Positions 1,004-17,836 of a stretch of 23,295 bases of DNA are shown one piece after another. Numbering within the stretch: position 1 is the stretch's first letter; every line of letters starts with the position of its first letter. Origin of the DNA: a virus; the IMG/VR virus record IMGVR_UViG_3300030406_001494, positions 1-23,295 of that record; one strand, given 5' to 3'. Position numbers and translations under genes: made by a program. The notes under the pieces were generated by a model that did not search any database, had not been told where the DNA came from, and worked only from the letters and a program-made list of their open reading frames with translations.

Positions 1004-1091
1004 CAAACCAAAAAATAAAAATATTAAGAAACTAAAAGTGTTTTTGAATGGCAAACGAAATCTATCACAGAAGCAATTGGGGAGAAAGTAA
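987..1091 (+). CDS. Small basic ORF (34 aa) overlapping the first fibre gene
   Basis: ATG 987 to TAA 1089-1091 encodes a 34-residue, very basic peptide starting MGTLTYKPKNKNIKKLKVFL. It begins inside the second copy of the 23-bp duplication and overlaps the following large gene by 44 nt in another frame. The peptide is Lys/Arg/Asn-rich without obvious low-complexity drift, and small overlapping genes are common in this phage. Without homologues it may be a coupling ORF or chance. No function is assigned. Confidence 0.35.
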   Translation: MGTLTYKPKNKNIKKLKVFLNGKRNLSQKQLGRK

Positions 1092-2850
1092 ACCAGAAGG
1101 TTTTGGTGATATGTACTTTGATTCTAGTGCAACCAATAAGTTGTACAATCGTTCTACATATTATGAGAACTCAGATGCTACAGATAAAATATTAGGAGAT
1201 ATTCCTAACAAAGCAAGTATTGTACTTACACCTACAGGTTACTCAGAAGATAGTATCAATACAGCCATACCACCTTATCAGGTATTACCAGAAGAATTAG
1301 TTACTAATGGTACATTTGATACAGATAGTGATTGGACAAAAAGTTCATCTGTTACAATCACAAATGGTAAAGCAAGAATATTAAGTACTGATGGTAGTTA
1401 TCAATATTTAGCACAAACAGGATTTACTGAATCTCAAACCAAAAGAGTACAAATTAGTCTTGAGATTGTTGAGTATGTAAGTGGAACTTTAAAAGCACAA
1501 TTTTCTGGTGGCAGTAATTATAATTTCCCACAATCAATAGGTATTCATACTTTAACTGTAATAAATGATGGTACTGCAGGCACTCTTAATTTAGCAAGAG
1601 TTTCAGGTGTAACAGACATCACAATAGATAATGTGTCAGTTAAAGAAATACAAGAAGCTGATTTTACCTTTGCAAGAAACTCAAGTGCTACAAGAGTAAA
1701 CCAAGCAGGACTTATAGAAGCATCACAAAGTAATGACACACCAAGATTAGACTACACTACTGGACAAGGTGCTTTTTTACTAGAACCACAAAAGACTAAT
1801 GAACTTAGATACTCAAATGATTTCAGTGAATGGGATGAAAATAATAATGCTTCAGTAACCCTTAATGTTTTGACATCACCTGATGGTACACAAAATGCTG
1901 CTCAATTTACATATGATGGTACAAGTAATGGAAGAATTGAAGAAGCTATAACAGTAAATAATGGAAGTGATTATACATTTTCAATATATTTGAAAAATAA
2001 AGATATATCAGATCCTACTCAAGTATTTATTGGTTTTAGTTCTGCTCCCAATGAAGGTGAATATGTAACAATAACTAACGAATGGAAAAGATTTTCTACA
2101 ACACAAACAGCAAATGGCTCTACAGAATTTCCAAGAGTTAGTTGTGACTTAGCAGGAAGTTTATATGCTTTTGGTGCACAAGTTGAAGAAAGTTCATTTG
2201 CTACATCCTACATACCTACTAACGCTTCTACAGTAACAAGAAGTGCAGAAACATCTGTTGGTAGTGGAAACTCTGATTTATTTAATGATAGTGAAGGAGT
2301 ACTGTACGGAGAAATAAGTGCTTTAGCTGATGATGGAACTTATCGTGCATTTGCTATTTGTGATGATTCAAGTTCAAATAGAATTTATTTAGGTTTTGGT
2401 AATGGTAGTAATCAATTAAGATTAGAAATAACTGCAAGTAGTTCTGCTCAAGTAATTTTAACACACAATGTGTCTGACACAAAAGAATTTCAAAAATTAG
2501 CTGTAAGATATAAAACTAATGATGTTAGTTTTTATGTAAATGGTTTAGAAGTTGGTACAGATACAAATGCTACAATACCTTCAGGTTTAGATACTTTAAA
2601 ATTTACAAGTGGTAGTACAGGTAGTATTCTATATGCTCGTACAAAAAATATGTCAGTATTTAAAGAAGAACTTACGGCTTTAGAACTTGAAAAGCTTACA
2701 TCTTGGAGAGATTTTAGAGATTTAGCAGAAAGTCAACAATATACATTAGTAACAATAAAATCTGATGCCATAGTCGTATCAGCATACGGAACAACTTCAG
2801 GTGGTGGTGGTGTGTCTGGTGGTGGCTCTGGTGGAGGAGGAGGATATTAA
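1048..2850 (+). CDS. Phage appendage / tail-fibre-like protein 1 with carbohydrate-binding-like and LamG-like domains
   Basis: This 600-residue beta-rich protein is the longest of three tandem paralogues. Residues ~84-200 ('LVTNGTFDTDSDWT' to 'ITIDNVSVKEI') look like a carbohydrate-binding jelly roll. Residues 208-224 carry 'FARNSSATRVNQAGLIE' and 243-252 'FLLEPQKTNE', a hallmark linker of phage appendage proteins. Another jelly-roll-like stretch follows (~265-395), then a LamG/concanavalin-like domain (~408-551, 'NDSEGVLYGEISAL...FYVNGLEVGTDT'). The last ~17 residues (584-600) are almost all Gly and Ser, as in flexible phage tips. Likely role: receptor or glycan recognition on the virion. 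Whether it belongs to tail or head is not shown. Confidence 0.75.
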   Translation: MANEIYHRSNWGESKPEGFGDMYFDSSATNKLYNRSTYYENSDATDKILGDIPNKASIVLTPTGYSEDSINTAIPPYQVLPEELVTNGTFDTDSDWTKSSSVTITNGKARILSTDGSYQYLAQTGFTESQTKRVQISLEIVEYVSGTLKAQFSGGSNYNFPQSIGIHTLTVINDGTAGTLNLARVSGVTDITIDNVSVKEIQEADFTFARNSSATRVNQAGLIEASQSNDTPRLDYTTGQGAFLLEPQKTNELRYSNDFSEWDENNNASVTLNVLTSPDGTQNAAQFTYDGTSNGRIEEAITVNNGSDYTFSIYLKNKDISDPTQVFIGFSSAPNEGEYVTITNEWKRFSTTQTANGSTEFPRVSCDLAGSLYAFGAQVEESSFATSYIPTNASTVTRSAETSVGSGNSDLFNDSEGVLYGEISALADDGTYRAFAICDDSSSNRIYLGFGNGSNQLRLEITASSSAQVILTHNVSDTKEFQKLAVRYKTNDVSFYVNGLEVGTDTNATIPSGLDTLKFTSGSTGSILYARTKNMSVFKEELTALELEKLTSWRDFRDLAESQQYTLVTIKSDAIVVSAYGTTSGGGGVSGGGSGGGGGY

Positions 2851-2851
2851 T

Positions 2852-4081
2852 ATGGCAAATACATTTAAATTTGGTAATGAAAATTGGGCAGTAAAAGATG
2901 GTAAGGTACTCGCATATAATGATGAGAACAATGCATTCAAACCTTTACCTTTTACTTTTGCAAGGTCTAGCTCTGCTACAAGAGTAGATAATGAAGGACT
3001 TATAAAAACTACTGATTCTGGTTTTGCAAGAATAGATTTCCTAAACAACACAAGTGGACACTTATTACTTGAACCTAGTAGTACAAATTTATTTGACTAT
3101 AGTGAAGATTTTAGTCAATGGGTAAATATAAGAACTACAGATGCTTTAAGCTCAATTAGCTCTCCATCAGGTAGTGCTAATGTATATAAAATAGTTCCAA
3201 CAACTGATAACAATACTCATAGAATAGACAAGGTTGTTACTTTAACAGATAGCAATACTTACTCTTTATCATTTTTTGCAAAGAAAGGAGAATATAATTG
3301 TATCAGGGCTTCAATAGGAAAAACTTCAGTAACAGGAGACATTGTATCCTTTAATTTAGATACAGGTGTAAAAACTGAAACAGGTACTATTGCAAGTTCT
3401 TCAATGGTTGAATTTTCAAATGGATGGTTTAGATGTTCTTTTACAGCAGCTGCAAGTACAGCAGATAGAGTTGTTATAGGACTAGGTAATGATGATACAT
3501 ATAGTTTTGCTGGAGATGGTAGTTCAGGTATTTTTTTATGGGGAGCTATGATAGAAGAACAAGAGTTTAGTACATCTTACATAGCTACAACTGGTAGTAC
3601 AGTTACTAGAGCTGCTGATACTTGTAATAGTGCAGGAAACTCTTCTGTATTTAACGATAGTGAAGGTGTTCTTTATGCAGAGATTGCTTCTTTAGCAGAA
3701 AATGTTGGAAGTAATAAAAAGTTTTCTATATCATCAGGTGCTTCAAGCAATTCAGTTACTTTTTCATATAGAAGTACAAACAATCAAATACAAGCTTTAG
3801 TAAAGAGTGGTGGTACAACCACATTCAATAAAACAACAATTATTTCTCCTGCTGTTACTAATTTTTTTAAAATTGCTATTAAATATAAAACTGATGATTG
3901 TGCTTTATTTGTTAACGGAACAAAAGTTGCAACTGACACAAGTGCTACTGTGCCTTCTGGATTGAATACTTTAAATTTTGATAGGGGAGATGGTGGTCAA
4001 GACTATATTGGAAAAGTAAAAAACATACAAGTATATAATACTGCACTAACAGATGCGGAACTAATAGAATTAACAAGTTAA
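2852..4081 (+). CDS. Phage appendage / tail-fibre-like protein 2 (LamG-like)
   Basis: I start it at ATG 2852 (MANTFKFGN...), giving 409 residues. An upstream in-frame ATG at 2801 would only add 17 residues translated out of frame from the Gly-rich end of the previous gene. A GGAGGAGGAGGA tract (2833-2844) lies 7 nt before ATG 2852 and could act as a Shine-Dalgarno while also encoding glycines. Residues 37-51 carry 'FARSSSATRVDNEGLI' and 71-80 'LLLEPSSTNL'. A jelly-roll-like region follows to ~265 and a LamG-like domain ('NDSEGVLYAEIASL', 'LFVNGTKVATDT') fills ~280-409. It is a paralogue of the flanking genes and probably a host-surface-binding virion part. It ends TAATG with the next gene. 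Confidence 0.75.
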   Translation: MANTFKFGNENWAVKDGKVLAYNDENNAFKPLPFTFARSSSATRVDNEGLIKTTDSGFARIDFLNNTSGHLLLEPSSTNLFDYSEDFSQWVNIRTTDALSSISSPSGSANVYKIVPTTDNNTHRIDKVVTLTDSNTYSLSFFAKKGEYNCIRASIGKTSVTGDIVSFNLDTGVKTETGTIASSSMVEFSNGWFRCSFTAAASTADRVVIGLGNDDTYSFAGDGSSGIFLWGAMIEEQEFSTSYIATTGSTVTRAADTCNSAGNSSVFNDSEGVLYAEIASLAENVGSNKKFSISSGASSNSVTFSYRSTNNQIQALVKSGGTTTFNKTTIISPAVTNFFKIAIKYKTDDCALFVNGTKVATDTSATVPSGLNTLNFDRGDGGQDYIGKVKNIQVYNTALTDAELIELTS

Positions 4082-5373
4082 TGTCATTAGCAGAAATACA
4101 TAAGAAAGCAAAACTTGTAATGATACCTTCTGGTTTCAAGTCCAGTAGTTCTACAGATAATTTGTATTCTGTTATACCTAGTAATGGTGATGGTGATTTT
4201 AATTATGCAGGTACTACAAATGGCACAAGAGTAAATAAAGATGGACTTATAGAAATAGCATCATCTAATCAACCAAGATTAGATTATGATCCTAGCAACC
4301 CACAAAACCCACATTTGTTATTAGAACCATCAAGAACAAATTTGTTTAAATACTATAATGACTATAGTCAATCTGACTGGTCTAAAAATAACATAACTGT
4401 TACAGACAATGACATCACAGCACCAGACGGTAGTTTAACAGGTGCAAAAATATTAACTACTGCTACAACTACAGCTACTTATTTATTTCAAAGTGTTACA
4501 GAAACTACAGGAACAGATAAATACACGTTCAGCATATTTGTAAAAAAAGGTGATACAGATAGAGTTGCACTAAGATTTCAAACAAACTATCCAGACAGGT
4601 CAGATGTAGTTTTTGTTTTTTCTACAGCAAGTTTTGAAACACAATCTACAGGTGGTAGTATATCGGTTACATCAAATAAAATAGTAGCTTATCAAAATGA
4701 TTGGTTTAGAATAGAACTTACAATACAAGCAGTATCTGGGAACTCTACTGTACAAGGTTATATAAGACCAAGAGTTACTTCTGGTGTTGTAGATGCCACA
4801 GACACAGGTACTTCTTTTTGTTATGTATGGGGTGGACAAATGGAAGAAAGTGATGTAGCAACAAGTGTTATACCTACAGCAAATAATCAAGTAACAAGAA
4901 CTGCTGATAGTTGTAATAGTTCTGGAAGCTCTAATGTATTTAATTCGTTAGAAGGTGTTTTATTTTGTGAAATAGCTGCACTTTCAGATGATGGTACTTT
5001 TAGAATGTTATCAATAAGTGATGGAACAAACAATAACAGAGTTCGTATCAATTATACTTCTAGTACAGAACAACTACAAGGAAGATTAGTAACAGGTGGT
5101 GTAACACAAGCAGATATAATTAAAACTTCAGCAGGTGTAACAACTTTTCATAAAGCAGCATTACAATACAAAGCTAATGAAGTAAAATTTTTTGTAGATG
5201 GAACTCAAGTAGGAAGTACTGATACATCAGCTTCTGTACCAACAGTTACCACTCTAGACACACTTAATTTTAATGGTGGTTCAGGTACTAATGTTTTTTT
5301 TGGTAAATGTAAACAGCTTATGTACTTTGACACAATATTAACAGATGCAGAATTAACAACTTTAACAACATAA
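4081..5373 (+). CDS. Phage appendage / tail-fibre-like protein 3 (LamG-like)
   Basis: Third member of the tandem paralogue set, 430 residues. The N-terminus 'KAKLVMIPSGFK...SVIPSNGDGDFNY' differs from the other two and resembles the attachment segment of Bacteroidetes phage appendage proteins. Then come 'TRVNKDGLIE' (49-58), 'LLLEPSRTNL' (79-88), a central jelly-roll-like part and a C-terminal LamG-like domain ('LEGVLFCEIAALSDDGTF', 'FFVDGTQVGSTDTSA'). The different N-termini on similar C-terminal modules suggest the three proteins attach differently or assemble in order while using related binding folds; that is inference. Confidence 0.75.
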   Translation: MSLAEIHKKAKLVMIPSGFKSSSSTDNLYSVIPSNGDGDFNYAGTTNGTRVNKDGLIEIASSNQPRLDYDPSNPQNPHLLLEPSRTNLFKYYNDYSQSDWSKNNITVTDNDITAPDGSLTGAKILTTATTTATYLFQSVTETTGTDKYTFSIFVKKGDTDRVALRFQTNYPDRSDVVFVFSTASFETQSTGGSISVTSNKIVAYQNDWFRIELTIQAVSGNSTVQGYIRPRVTSGVVDATDTGTSFCYVWGGQMEESDVATSVIPTANNQVTRTADSCNSSGSSNVFNSLEGVLFCEIAALSDDGTFRMLSISDGTNNNRVRINYTSSTEQLQGRLVTGGVTQADIIKTSAGVTTFHKAALQYKANEVKFFVDGTQVGSTDTSASVPTVTTLDTLNFNGGSGTNVFFGKCKQLMYFDTILTDAELTTLTT

Positions 5374-7997: not shown

Positions 7998-8146
7998 TGG
8001 AATTTAAAATATTAAACATAGTAAATACTGGTTTACTTCTTGGAGTAACCTTTTACGACAATCCAGAAGAAGGATACAGTTACGAAGTAAACATTTTTTT
8101 ATTTATAATAACTTTACATTTTAGGTGGTATGAAAAAAATATTTAG
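7997..8146 (+). CDS. Small hydrophobic protein of the lysis cassette
   Basis: ATG 7997 to TAG 8144-8146 encodes 49 residues (MEFKILNIVNTGLLLGVTFY...). It has two hydrophobic stretches, residues ~5-19 and ~31-43, split by an acidic loop (DNPEEGY) and ends 'RWYEKNI'. Coding is supported by TAATG coupling to the endolysin and a 17-nt overlap with the holin gene in another frame. I recall similar short ORFs beside flavobacterial phage holins. It could be a holin regulator or second membrane component; this is inference. Confidence 0.6.
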   Translation: MEFKILNIVNTGLLLGVTFYDNPEEGYSYEVNIFLFIITLHFRWYEKNI

Positions 8147-8516
8147 CTTAATTACAGGCTCTCTAATCAACGATATTGGAAAAGTGGTAGACAACCTACA
8201 CACGAGTGAAGAAGAACGCTTAGAAGCAAAGCAAAAGCTATCTGAGCTTATAAAACAAGCTGATGAAAAAGCACAGAATGAAGTAACAGCTAGATGGGAG
8301 TATGATACAAAGAATGGTAACTTCTTAACTCGTAGTATAAGACCTTTGGTTTTAATATTTCTTACATCTATGTTTACACTACTTGCATTTACAGATGGTA
8401 ATATAGGTGGTTTTAAAGTACAAGAACAGTATATACCTATCTTTCAAACTTTACTTGTTACTGTATATGGTGCATATTTTGTTGGTAGAACTTACGAAAA
8501 AACAAAAAAAAATTAG
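8130..8516 (+). CDS. Holin, 3-TM type (GTA_holin_3TM-like)
   Basis: 128 residues. An amphipathic N-terminus and a charged helix (25-60, 'SEEERLEAKQKLSELIKQ') precede 'RSIRPLVLIFLTSMFTLLAF' (69-87) and a second membrane span (~102-118, 'IPIFQTLLVTVYGAYFVGR'), then a basic tail. The RP.V..F segment after a 'WEYD...NFLTRS' stretch is characteristic of the 'holin of 3TMs' family. It would make the inner-membrane lesion that releases the M15 endolysin. It is the last gene of this + strand run before the AT-rich spacer. Confidence 0.8.
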   Translation: MKKIFSLITGSLINDIGKVVDNLHTSEEERLEAKQKLSELIKQADEKAQNEVTARWEYDTKNGNFLTRSIRPLVLIFLTSMFTLLAFTDGNIGGFKVQEQYIPIFQTLLVTVYGAYFVGRTYEKTKKN

Positions 8517-8639
8517 TATTTTCTTAATATATATATATAGTAATAATTATATATAGTATTATATTATTATAATATATTATTATTATTATATAATATTATA
8601 TATATAGTAGAGATGTTTAATGTTATTTTATAAAATTGT
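8517..8639. promoter_or_regulatory. Extremely AT-rich spacer with palindrome between lysis and early modules
   Basis: Between the holin stop and ATG 8640 there is no gene. Positions 8521-8610 contain only five G or C bases in 90 (my count), made of TA, TAT and ATT runs that can fold on themselves imperfectly. A perfect 12-bp palindrome, ATTTTATAAAAT (8625-8636), sits 3 nt before the next start codon. The spacer separates two functional modules, so a promoter/operator, a transcription end, or a DNA-unwinding site are all possible. I could not place a convincing TTG / TAnnTTTG promoter pair. Confidence 0.5.
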
Positions 8640-8852
8640 ATGTTTGAAGAAATTATAAAGATGCCTATTACAGATCGTGAAAAAATAGATAAGTTACTTG
8701 AGATAGATGCAGATTTATATACCAACTTAGGTATAGATAGCACAAAGAAAGAAAGATTAGAAGTAAAAAGATTATCTAAAAAAATATATAGAATGATACA
8801 AGGTATAAACCCTGCTATAGGTAAAACTTTACTTCAAGCTATGGATAGATGA
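8640..8852 (+). CDS. Small helical protein, first gene of the early operon, unknown function
   Basis: 70 residues, helical and charged (MFEEIIKMPITDREKIDKLL...), no membrane segment. It directly follows the AT-rich spacer and palindrome, and overlaps the NinG-like gene as ATGA, so it is probably the first product of the DNA-metabolism operon. The basic middle ('STKKERLEVKRLSKKIYRM') could contact nucleic acid, but no named domain is recognised. Confidence 0.6.
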   Translation: MFEEIIKMPITDREKIDKLLEIDADLYTNLGIDSTKKERLEVKRLSKKIYRMIQGINPAIGKTLLQAMDR

Positions 8853-9208
8853 CAAGAAGTAAACTTGTCAAAAAACTTGACAAACTATTTTCTTTATACA
8901 TAAGAAACAGATACTCAAAAAATGGCAAAGCAAAATGTTTTACTTGTGGTAAAGTAGATGACATTAAAAGACTACACGCAGGACATTTTATGAGTAGAAA
9001 ACATCATAGTACGAGATGGGATGAAACAAATGTACAAGTGCAATGTCCTAAATGCAATTTGTTTGGACAAGGTGAACAATACACTTTTGGTAAAAACTTA
9101 GATAAGAAATACGGAAAAGGCACAGCAGATAAACTACATAGAAAAGCAAGAAAGGTAGTCAAACTATCTACAAATGATTTGAAAGAACTTATAGAAAAAT
9201 ATAAGTAA
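8849..9208 (+). CDS. NinG-like recombination protein
   Basis: 119 residues. It carries the paired metal-binding pattern of lambda NinG (Rap): 'CFTCGK' (C30, C33), 'HAGHFMSRKHHSTRWDE' (43-59) and 'NVQVQCPKCNLFGQG' (C66, C69, 61-75). NinG/Rap proteins are structure-specific DNA junction endonucleases in phage recombination, which fits the exonuclease and helicase encoded downstream. Its stop codon lies within the A-run that is the T-tract of a minus-strand terminator, so the gene ends exactly where opposing transcription should stop. Confidence 0.8.
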   Translation: MTRSKLVKKLDKLFSLYIRNRYSKNGKAKCFTCGKVDDIKRLHAGHFMSRKHHSTRWDETNVQVQCPKCNLFGQGEQYTFGKNLDKKYGKGTADKLHRKARKVVKLSTNDLKELIEKYK

Positions 9209-9233
9209 AAAAAAACCACCTAAGAAGGTGGTT
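9207..9233 (-). terminator. Rho-independent terminator for minus-strand transcription
   Basis: A 7-bp stem AACCACC (9214-9220) / GGTGGTT (9227-9233) encloses a 6-nt loop. The A-run 9207-9215 precedes it on the + strand, so on the minus strand the hairpin is followed by a T tract. On the + strand the stem is followed by ATTAG, not a T tract. This polarity points to a minus-strand transcript, matching the micro-gene at 9331-9257. Confidence 0.7.
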
Positions 9234-9256
9234 ATTAGTGTAAGTATAACTATCTC

Positions 9257-9331
9257 TTAGTCATCTTCACCATAATCTGAAAACCTTTCATAATGTGTAG
9301 AAAGATTTTCCCAATATTGCTCTTCATTCAT
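9257..9331 (-). CDS. 24-aa micro-gene on the minus strand
   Basis: The minus strand from ATG 9331 to TAA 9257 encodes a 24-residue acidic peptide beginning MNEEQYWENLSTHYE and ending GEDD. It is the only convincing minus-strand gene. Coding is supported by its frame: it is flanked upstream by a Bacteroidetes-like promoter candidate (9384-9354) and downstream, 23 nt after the stop, by a minus-strand terminator. The sequence is protein-like (aromatic and acidic) rather than the hydrophobic shadow seen in other antisense frames. Function unknown; a small inhibitor, or an RNA whose antisense action matters more than the peptide, are both possible. Confidence 0.5.
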   Translation of the reverse strand: MNEEQYWENLSTHYERFSDYGEDD

Positions 9332-9353
9332 AATATTAATTTTAAAATTCTGT

Positions 9354-9384
9354 CTAATATACACAAATGTTAATAAATACAAAA
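9354..9384 (-). promoter_or_regulatory. Candidate Bacteroidetes-type promoter for the minus-strand micro-gene
   Basis: Read on the minus strand, TTTTG (9384-9380) is followed after 18 nt by TATATTAG (9361-9354). The Bacteroidetes sigma-ABfr consensus is TTTG, about 19 nt, TAnnTTTG; the -7 box here differs at one base. Transcription would begin near 9347, about 16 nt before the ATG at 9331. Confidence 0.4.
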
Positions 9385-9432
9385 GAAATTATATAAAAAT
9401 TTTTTTTTATAACTTTAGGAAAATTTATAATT
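9385..9432 (+). promoter_or_regulatory. Candidate + strand promoter region of the replication operon
   Basis: The stretch before ATG 9433 contains an A/T tract (AAAAATTTTTTTTTAT, 9395-9410) and TAACTTTA (9410-9417), one base from TAnnTTTG. No TTG is found at the expected distance upstream, so the call is weak. With the minus-strand promoter candidate it makes a divergent control region at 9332-9432. Confidence 0.25.
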
Positions 9433-9579
9433 ATGACACATTTAGAAGATTTACAAAGATTGCGAAACTTAAATTATGGTTTTGCAGAAACTACAGCTCT
9501 TAGAAATAAAATACAAGAGCTAGAAGCTAAAATAGAAATACTAACCCAACAAATTCAAGAATATGATTTATACGAGTAA
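9433..9579 (+). CDS. Small coiled-coil protein (48 aa)
   Basis: ATG 9433 to TAA 9577-9579 encodes 48 residues starting MTHLEDLQRLRNLNYGFAET. The second half ('LRNKIQELEAKIEILTQQIQEY') has clear heptad spacing of Leu/Ile and should form a coiled coil. It overlaps the next gene by 17 nt in another frame, a pattern repeated by other small genes here. It is the first + strand gene after the divergent region. A small dimeric regulator or adaptor is possible, but nothing identifies a function. Confidence 0.6.
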   Translation: MTHLEDLQRLRNLNYGFAETTALRNKIQELEAKIEILTQQIQEYDLYE

Positions 9580-9922
9580 AATAAAAACTATTGTAAAAAG
9601 CAGTAGTTTCAAGACACAAGATGGTGCTACTATGCATAACTATGTAGTAACATTTGCAAATGGACACAATCCAAATATTTATTCTACAAAACCTTTACCT
9701 TACAATGAAGGTGAAGATGCAACTTATGACTTAGACCAAGCAAAAAATAAAGCTAAGTTTGTAAATAATCAACTTAAAACTACTTATACTAATAAAGACC
9801 AAATCATTATTAGACAAACAGTAATAAAAGCTGCATCAGAGTTTCACGCAGGTACAGAATCAACTGCTGATGATGTAGTAAAAACAGCACAAACCTTTTT
9901 AAATTGGATAAACAATGGCTGA
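9563..9922 (+). CDS. Replication-module protein, possible OB-fold, function unknown
   Basis: 119 residues. The first half is strand-rich ('YTSKIKTIVKSSSFKTQDG', 'HNYVVTFANGHNPNIYS') with an acidic turn ('NEGEDATYDLD'), and the second half is helical ('NKAKFVNNQL', 'DDVVKTAQTFLNWINN'). The beginning looks like an OB-fold, but I recognise no named family. It overlaps by 8 nt with the DUF3127-like protein, so the two are probably made together and may act on the same DNA substrate. Confidence 0.55.
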   Translation: MIYTSKIKTIVKSSSFKTQDGATMHNYVVTFANGHNPNIYSTKPLPYNEGEDATYDLDQAKNKAKFVNNQLKTTYTNKDQIIIRQTVIKAASEFHAGTESTADDVVKTAQTFLNWINNG

Positions 9923-10250
9923 GATTAAAGGACAAATATTGGAAATAGGAGATTCCATTTCAAGTAAAGGAACAAACAAGTATAGAAACCTTATACTAAA
10001 AACTGAAGAGAAGTACCCACAAGTACTTTGTATAGAGTTTTGGAATGATAAAGTTAATCAAATACTAAACCTTAACGTGAAAGATACTGTAACAATATCT
10101 TACAACATAAGGGGTTCAAGATGGCAGAAGGATAATATAGTCAAATACTATACCAAATTAGTAGGTTGGAAAGTATCTGAATCAAAGGAAGTTTCAAACG
10201 CTGAATATTCACCAGATAGAGAAACTTATGAAGATGATTTACCCTTCTAA
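9915..10250 (+). CDS. DUF3127-like OB-fold single-strand DNA-binding protein
   Basis: 111 residues. The core resembles DUF3127: 'MAEIKGQILEIGDSISSKGT', 'RNLILKTEEKYPQVLCIEFWNDK', 'VKDTVTISYNIRGSRW' and 'YYTKLVGWKV'. An acidic linker leads to the C-terminal DDLPF, which copies the acidic tip (DDxPF) of bacterial SSB that docks partner enzymes. It probably coats single-stranded DNA at the phage fork or recombination intermediates. The helicase gene directly downstream overlaps by one base (TAATG). Confidence 0.75.
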   Translation: MAEIKGQILEIGDSISSKGTNKYRNLILKTEEKYPQVLCIEFWNDKVNQILNLNVKDTVTISYNIRGSRWQKDNIVKYYTKLVGWKVSESKEVSNAEYSPDRETYEDDLPF

Positions 10251-11155
10251 TGTTTATCAATCTTGACAATGAGATTAAAAAACTTGATGACTACCGAGCA
10301 GGAAAACTAAAGACTGGTTTAAAGCTCGGTATCTCTCGTTTAGATGAATACCTACGTTTTAAGTATGGTGCTATGAATGTTGTAGTAGGACATTCTAATG
10401 TGGGTAAAACATCTGTATTATTGTATCTAATGACACTATATTCTTTGAAGCATAACATTAGATGGCTTGTGTATTCAAGCGAAAACGAAACCTATACTAT
10501 CTACAGGAAGATATTAGAATACTTAGAAAACGAAGTATTCAACAAAATACCAGAAGCTATATATAAAGAAAGAATAAGATGGATAGATTCCCATTTTAAA
10601 TTTATAGACACTTCAAGATTATATAGCTATACTCAAATATTAGACTTAGCAAATCAATTAAAAAAAGCGTGGGACTACCAAGCATTTGTTATAGATCCTT
10701 GGAACTCACTTGCTAAAGATAAACACAAACTTAAAGGTACAAACTCTTATGAGTATACTTATGAAGCTCTGTCTGAAGTTAGATTGTTCTGTAAGCAAAA
10801 CAATGTTTCAACTTACATTTGTACACACGCTGCTACAGAAGCATCAAGAAAAGTACACCCTAAAGGACACGACTTTGAAAACCAACCAACACCACCAAGT
10901 GCAGCTTCTATAGAATATGGTTCTATGTTTAACAATAGATGTGATAATATGATACGAATACACAGATACATCTATTCTCCTACAGATTGGATGTACTCAA
11001 GGATAGCAATATTAAAATGTAAGAACATAGACACAGGTGGTAAATGTACACCTATAGATATGCCTGTACTAATGAAGAGTTTAAAAAACAATACTGGTTT
11101 TGAAATAGAAGGTGTAAACCCTATACCTAAAAGAACACAAGGCAAGATATTATGA
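10250..11155 (+). CDS. DnaB/RecA-fold replicative helicase (SF4-like ATPase domain)
   Basis: 301 residues containing only the RecA-like motor. Walker A is 'GHSNVGKTS' (47-55), Walker B 'AFVIDP' (145-150) with D149, and 'ICTHAATEASR' (190-200) fits the H3/sensor region of DnaB-type helicases. The N-terminal DnaB domain is missing, as in other short phage helicases. It should unwind DNA at the fork with the SSB-like protein encoded just before. No primase is visible in the window. It overlaps the next gene as ATGA. Confidence 0.75.
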   Translation: MFINLDNEIKKLDDYRAGKLKTGLKLGISRLDEYLRFKYGAMNVVVGHSNVGKTSVLLYLMTLYSLKHNIRWLVYSSENETYTIYRKILEYLENEVFNKIPEAIYKERIRWIDSHFKFIDTSRLYSYTQILDLANQLKKAWDYQAFVIDPWNSLAKDKHKLKGTNSYEYTYEALSEVRLFCKQNNVSTYICTHAATEASRKVHPKGHDFENQPTPPSAASIEYGSMFNNRCDNMIRIHRYIYSPTDWMYSRIAILKCKNIDTGGKCTPIDMPVLMKSLKNNTGFEIEGVNPIPKRTQGKIL

Positions 11156-15667: not shown

Positions 15668-16147
15668 ATGTTGAAACAAACATTTATAAAAACAAATTTA
15701 AGAGCATATACTTTTGAAGTTAAAAAAATAAAAGAATGGGTAGAAGATAGATGTAAAGATGGTAAAGTATTAAATCTTTTTTCTGGTAAAACAAAACTAA
15801 ATATTAATGAATTTAGAGTAGATATTGATAAAAAAGAAGCAATTGCAGATGTGTATATGGATGTTTATGATTTTGTTAAAAATTGCGAGGATAGATATGA
15901 CACCATTATATTAGACCCACCATATTCAATAAGAAAGTCTATGGAATATTATAAAGGAAATTATACTTCAAAATTTAAACTAATAGCTGATGAATGTGCA
16001 AGATTATCAGACAGAGTAATTAGCTTTGGTTATCATTCAACTTTTTTGGGTGAAAAAAGGGGTTATCAATTAGAAGAATTATGTGTATTTGGACATAGTG
16101 GTTCGCAACATTGCACTATTGCAATCATTGAAAAAAATAAATTATAA
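15668..16147 (+). CDS. Small SAM-dependent (probably adenine) methyltransferase
   Basis: 159 residues. 'KVLNLFSGKTKLN' (33-45) resembles SAM-binding motif I, 'FRVDID' fits the next acidic strand, and 'YDTIILDPPYSIRKSMEYY' (77-95) contains DPPY. The order motif I then motif IV differs from the two upstream beta-class enzymes, so it is not their paralogue. No target-recognition domain is evident, so the substrate may be DNA or something else. A 14-nt gap before ATG 15668 contains ACGTTATA. The stop overlaps the terminase gene as TAATG. Confidence 0.7.
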   Translation: MLKQTFIKTNLRAYTFEVKKIKEWVEDRCKDGKVLNLFSGKTKLNINEFRVDIDKKEAIADVYMDVYDFVKNCEDRYDTIILDPPYSIRKSMEYYKGNYTSKFKLIADECARLSDRVISFGYHSTFLGEKRGYQLEELCVFGHSGSQHCTIAIIEKNKL

Positions 16148-17635: not shown

Positions 17636-17683
17636 GTAGTTATTAAAAATTTTGTATATTTACTTGAACTTTAAAATTAATTT

Positions 17684-17836
17684 ATGATGAAAAAAAACTA
17701 TTTTAAGAATTTAGCACACCTTCACTATATACACCCTATAACAAGGAATGCAATTACTCAAAAAGAATACTTTGATTTTGTTTTTAGTAAAGAATACGAA
17801 CAAGTAATCAAGAGAGATTTTCTCAAGATAAAATAA
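17684..17836 (+). CDS. Isolated 50-aa gene between terminase and tail module
   Basis: ATG 17684 (a second ATG follows at 17687) to TAA 17834-17836. It encodes a basic, aromatic-rich peptide (MMKKNYFKNLAHLHYIHPIT...) ending 'IKRDFLKIK'. Unlike its neighbours it does not overlap any gene: 48 nt precede it and a strong terminator follows 11 nt after its stop. This suggests its own transcript. TATATTTA at 17655-17662 is a weak -7 candidate without a clear -33 element. Function unknown. Confidence 0.55.
   Translation: MMKKNYFKNLAHLHYIHPITRNAITQKEYFDFVFSKEYEQVIKRDFLKIK

Follow-up and report, generated by a model that had tools for sequence, protein, structure and literature searches.

Introduction

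Most descriptions of morons and promoter-early stem-loops (PeSLs) come from enterobacterial, pseudomonad and T4-type phages. The morons of lambdoid and other phages consist of a single coding region, equipped with its own promoter and terminator, that lies between adjacent genes; they are absent in close relatives and are often directed against the lytic operons (PMC4378225, PMC1524935). In the PeSLs of T4-type phages, repeated promoter and terminator sequences flank small accessory genes and accompany gene shuffling (Arbiol 2010 and Comeau 2014, via PMC4503421). The SAS/ESAS of Cluster K mycobacteriophages is a conserved sequence, repeated genome-wide, that immediately precedes the start codons of small genes unrelated to each other (PMC3203893).

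In this study we considered a short minus-strand unit within a stretch of 23,295 nucleotides (hereafter termed the window), which comprises positions 1-23,295 of the virus record IMGVR_UViG_3300030406_001494; the whole record is 30,464 bp long. Because the large terminase has its best matches, among those listed, in Phocaeicola phages, and because the record also has genes for NinG and for a single-strand binding protein of the DUF3127 type, its sequence fits an uncultivated Bacteroidota phage as the source. Sequence comparison indicates that the unit is most probably a moron-type accessory cassette, placed head-on at the boundary where the operon ending in ninG meets the replication operon of this phage.

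Results

The ninG/replication junction

The first-pass annotation had placed the unit inside the early operon. NinG relatives were found at 80 viral loci, and in most relatives that share the junction, the sequence after ninG holds a + strand terminator, a TAnnTTTG-like sequence and a small gene that opens the next operon, in this order. As relatives carry this terminator and the TAnnTTTG-like sequence between ninG and the next gene, including relatives in which the site is empty, the junction is on comparative grounds a boundary between two operons rather than an operon interior, and the unit lies between the two. Ahead of the same 48-aa gene that opens the next operon in the window, relatives have TAGCTTTG, TAAGTTTG or TATATTTG in place of TAACTTTA (Table 1).

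Further upstream, at positions 1048-5373, there are three consecutive long genes with a common motif resembling TFARxSSATRVxxxGLIE; these are tandem paralogues, and the alignments of L003 and L004 have gaps there. A methyltransferase-like gene at positions 15668-16147 is missing in L001, L002, L004 and L094. Its counterpart in L092 is 93.5% identical, whereas the other alignable regions of L092 reach only about 66-72%, which suggests a recent exchange.

Table 1. Features of the cassette, of its flanks and of sister copies (positions in the window unless noted).
Feature	Position	Strand	Evidence
Whole cassette, 187 bp	9211..9397	-	Interval missing from close relatives L001/L002
Putative promoter, Bacteroidota sigma-A type, TTTTG-18-TATATTAG	9354..9384	-	Consensus match and relatives
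Leader TTTTAAAATTAATATT ahead of ATG, core TTAAAATTAAT	9332..9347	-	Cassette alignment
24-codon gene MNEEQYWENLSTHYERFSDYGEDD, ATG 9331 to TAA 9257	9257..9331	-	Translation and similarity to L102
3' untranslated element ATAGTTATACTTACACTAAT, common to several cassettes	9234..9253	-	Repeat comparison; pattern matches in other phages
Predicted intrinsic terminator, 8-bp stem and T tract, overlapping the ninG stop codon	9207..9233	-	Hairpin scan
ninG (NinG/Rap), last gene ahead of the junction	8849..9208	+	PHROG 5034, E=2.8e-30; Pfam NinG, E=2.7e-14
Start of next operon: promoter-like TAACTTTA at 9410 and 48-aa gene MTHLEDLQRL...YDLYE (9433-9579)	9410..9579	+	Comparison of relatives
Third promoter-leader copy, ahead of a 50-aa gene downstream of the large terminase gene	17640..17836	+	79% identity over 58 bp with the cassette promoter-leader
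Second cassette, 98-aa Cys-rich protein	about 24639-25067 of the record (L085:1440-1868), outside the window	+	Repeat of the cassette ends

Signals of the minus-strand unit

The 24-codon minus-strand frame, the hairpin with its T tract and the overlap of the terminator with the ninG stop codon, all reported by the first-pass annotation, were confirmed (Table 1). The hairpin AACCACCTTCTTAGGTGGTT occupies 9233-9214 and is followed by the minus-strand T run that extends to 9207. This is the sole terminator-like site in the interval 8000-11000, for which shuffled sequences give an expectation of 0.5. The promoter sequence that had been proposed is likewise present and carries 9 of the 10 bases of the Bacteroidota consensus TTTG/TAnnTTTG (PMC6847099, PMC9723704), with TATATTAG being one base off TAnnTTTG. 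Its significance as a standalone motif did not hold, however, as a scan with the consensus TTTG-N17-21-TAnnTTTG, near-matches counted, yielded 45 sites in the window where 42 were expected, and simulations placed at least one near-match in a 225-bp stretch of such composition with P=0.36. Because near-matches to the consensus are no commoner than chance, the promoter match alone proves nothing. A sigma-70 scan found no site at the cassette promoter, and its total count was below chance. The 24-codon frame taken by itself is also within chance, short open frames being cheap in AT-rich DNA of 30% GC.

The unit gains its significance from conservation, because the promoter-leader and the 3' end recur around other genes. 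At the position of the cassette promoter, L092 has TATATTTG and L102 has TATCTTTG as the -7 box, and both of these boxes match TAnnTTTG in full. The leader core, with an ATG shortly downstream, is invariant in ten aligned copies. Adenines are present in the leader at -3, -6 and -12, and initiation in Flavobacterium is favoured by adenines at -3, -6, -12 and -13 (PMC6847099). The ORF does not differ in composition from its neighbours (GC 0.307, compared with 0.303 for both the window and ninG), and the low GC of the whole cassette (0.246) is due to its A+T-rich signals. In L003 and L004, the spacer of the cassette promoter contains a perfect inverted repeat, TATACACA-TT-TGTGTATA, that overlaps the promoter and is a candidate operator-like element; its left arm is degenerate in the window.

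Gain and loss of cassettes at the junction

L001 and L002 lack exactly the cassette interval and have 9 bp in its place, and their flanks are about 97% identical to the window up to 9210 and 96% identical again from 9398. The cassette is present in L003 and L004. By parsimony, the 187-bp unit would be an insertion, rather than a sequence that L001 and L002 have lost. Other relatives carry different minus-strand genes at the ninG junction, namely an 89-aa gene (L008, L011 and L035), a 49-aa gene (L019), or a 55-aa and an 89-aa gene together (L029). The junction cassettes of these five share the promoter TTTG-19-TATATTTG, end in a different hairpin and have cargo unrelated to that of the window, and in L015 only a promoter and leader remnant is found. 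Phages with identical NinG proteins differ in the presence of a cassette (L029 versus L030; L008 versus L009 and L013), and therefore gain and loss appear to be fast. As judged from these alignments, the junction is a repeatedly used insertion site. BLAST searches against isolated phages gave no match for the junction and only weak matches for the cassette.

The unit had been proposed to be a tiny switch, acting as a peptide, as an antisense RNA or as a promoter that blocks readthrough. As a regulatory switch, its minus-strand transcription or antisense RNA would keep transcripts of the ninG operon from running on into the replication operon. It does oppose the + strand genes precisely where the two operons meet, and the window junction, unlike that of most relatives, has no + strand terminator. 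However, the unit is missing at about 97% identity from the near-identical phages L001 and L002, where there is no obvious substitute, and in other relatives unrelated minus-strand cassettes replace it at the same site. The predicted transcript stops at the ninG stop codon and overlaps the ninG frame by about 2 nt, which speaks against the antisense proposal. Moreover, a cassette of the same type is found on the + strand elsewhere in the genome, co-oriented with its neighbours, and the peptide frame is kept in a phage whose 62-aa host gene sits elsewhere. Given that near-identical phages dispense with the unit, that its transcript would terminate at the stop codon of ninG, and that its sister cassette is co-oriented, we consider a switch or antisense function very improbable.

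Sister cassettes with shared ends and different cargo

The DNA of the cassette matches the second cassette of the record, located on the other strand, in three pieces that correspond to the promoter, the leader and the 3' end with the terminator, and the coding part is unmatched. Identity between the two 3' ends, terminator included, is 85% over 47 bp. In L096, a near-identical relative, the site of the second cassette carries a 67-aa gene flanked by the same ends. Versions with a 46-aa cargo (L092, L093 and L098) and with a 62-aa cargo (L102) were also found, and a terminator hairpin of the same type closes the 98-, 67-, 62- and 46-aa cassettes. Phages of the group carry two to four copies of the promoter-leader, and the pattern of the 3' element has matches in other phages too. 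The promoter-leader pattern was found in one of 396 Flavobacteriales genomes, where it precedes a chromosomal gene; the 62-aa protein has no homologue in these 396 genomes. A search of phages and plasmids gave no match for the 98-aa and 62-aa proteins, and family libraries gave no convincing match for any cassette cargo. On contig 3300030406_004568 (L088 and L102), the 62-aa and 98-aa cassettes are arranged back to back and are divergent.

As other small genes are found between the same promoter-leader and 3' end, cargo appears to be swapped between conserved ends. Such swapping suggests recombination through the ends, as has been proposed for T4-type PeSLs (via PMC4503421).

The 24-residue peptide

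The 62-aa protein of L102 ends with MSESRYWDNLATHHERFSDYGEDD (residues 39-62), a segment that aligns without gaps to the entire peptide of the window, Met on Met, with 18 of 24 residues identical and 23 of 24 similar (E=3e-14). The two coding parts differ at 13 nucleotides, distributed as 3, 3 and 7 over the first, second and third codon positions, with no stop introduced (dN 0.15, dS 0.60). Among random sets of 13 substitutions, 65% create a stop and 0.01% reach the observed similarity, such that the observed set surpasses 99.99% of them. The peptide frame is, by this sequence measure, conserved in a distant phage. Together with the recurrence of the signals around other genes, the frame kept in L102 supports the first-pass description of a unit with its own promoter, peptide and terminator, at the level of sequence. 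That annotation had also called for a search of related phages for the unit and for conservation of the peptide or only of the signals; L003 and L004 carry the unit, and both the peptide frame (in L102) and the signals are conserved.

The peptide is known in two sequence types, one common to three phages and one fused in L102. It has no match to a Pfam, NCBIfam or PADLOC family, and a peptide search returned one phage match at E=5 and none in plasmids. A degenerate pattern of the peptide end matched L090, L095, L102 and L103; the L103 match was rejected because it is inside a structural gene.

The promoter-leader of the window most resembles the one ahead of the 98-aa gene of L088 (91% over 58 bp), and the cassette from its ATG on is 81% identical over 130 bp to the end of the 62-aa gene of L102. 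With a promoter-leader of the 98-aa type and a sequence of the 62-aa type from the ATG onward, the window cassette seems to be a recombinant with its junction at the start codon. These matches, the back-to-back position of the two genes and the promoter-only leftover at the junction in L015 are also what would be expected of a decaying remnant, in which the final 24 codons of a gene of the 62-aa type became attached to the promoter-leader of a 98-aa-type cassette and the product is now functionless. We consider this unlikely, as the two parts meet precisely at a Met codon that is positioned as in all cassettes, and as three phages have an identical ORF although the remaining cassette sequence diverges by about 2-3% and their flanks by about 3.5%.

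The 147-nt predicted transcript folds better than shuffled sequences (z-score -3.9). At window positions 9230-9273 on the minus strand, the end of the ORF is predicted to pair with the shared 3' element around the stop codon, and this hairpin is also predicted in L004, L102 and L092; in L092 a G-U pair is replaced by A-U. Such features could reflect a small regulatory RNA whose structured transcript acts and whose peptide frame is incidental. The transcript has no Rfam match up to E=1, however, and for the 98- and 67-aa cassettes no stop-codon hairpin is predicted. A hairpin in the coding part loses 2 of its 11 pairs in L102, where the amino acids are still similar, and cassettes with the same ends contain different, longer genes. 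A small RNA function is thus quite improbable.

Discussion

If the unit is a moron-type cassette, its promoter would most likely be read by the host sigma-A RNA polymerase independently of the phage operons, and owing to this independence the cassette could sit in either direction. Transcription would produce a monocistronic mRNA of roughly 150 nt, lacking a Shine-Dalgarno sequence and ending at the cassette's own terminator, and translation of this mRNA would yield a 24-residue acidic microprotein. The peptide may serve as a small accessory protein, for example in host takeover or counter-defence. Cargo would probably be exchanged between the conserved ends by homologous recombination through these ends.

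The cassette resembles morons in that it sits between two genes that are adjacent in L001 and L002, in that it has a putative promoter and terminator of its own, with signals conserved across cassettes, and in that it contains a predicted protein-coding gene whose frame is conserved in L102 with conservative changes. It differs in the very small size of its cargo and in having ends that are common to other cassettes with other cargo. The GC content of its ORF (31%) is also close to that of the phage (30%), whereas a deviating composition is usual, although not required, for morons. Morons are also expressed independently of the lytic programme of their phage, as would be predicted for this cassette.

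As in PeSLs, a repeated regulatory sequence is associated with gene shuffling, seen here in the multiple promoter-leaders per phage and in the 98- and 67-aa genes that occupy one site. PeSLs lie between genes as promoter-terminator units, with a T4 early promoter and a stem-loop, whereas promoter and terminator here bracket one gene; the promoter is, moreover, of the Bacteroidota TTTG/TAnnTTTG-like type, and the phages are of about 30 kb and not T4-like. The cassette leader, like SAS/ESAS, recurs before the start codons of various small genes that are not related to one another. SAS includes a ribosome-binding site, whereas the cassette has a promoter and an A-rich leader without a Shine-Dalgarno sequence, and its 3' end is shared as well.

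A broader proposal, which we put forward tentatively as somewhat short of an even chance, is that these elements constitute a dedicated mobile expression cassette of Bacteroidota phages, with a fixed promoter-leader and 3' end and an exchangeable microprotein, and that recombination through its ends carries it from site to site and from phage to phage. The 24-aa peptide would then rank among the smallest cargos and be a functional acidic microprotein, one that is also found as a module at the C-terminus of a longer protein.

The interest of the unit lies in its very small cargo, its shared and replaceable ends and its Bacteroidota setting. It would extend the logic of morons and PeSLs to uncultivated phages of the Bacteroidota, in combination with the promoter type of this phylum. 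At 24 codons, the cargo is so short that gene callers would miss genes of this kind, and the invariant promoter-leader and 3' end may provide a search handle for further tiny accessory genes of Bacteroidota phages, a class of phage genes that often includes host-takeover and counter-defence proteins.
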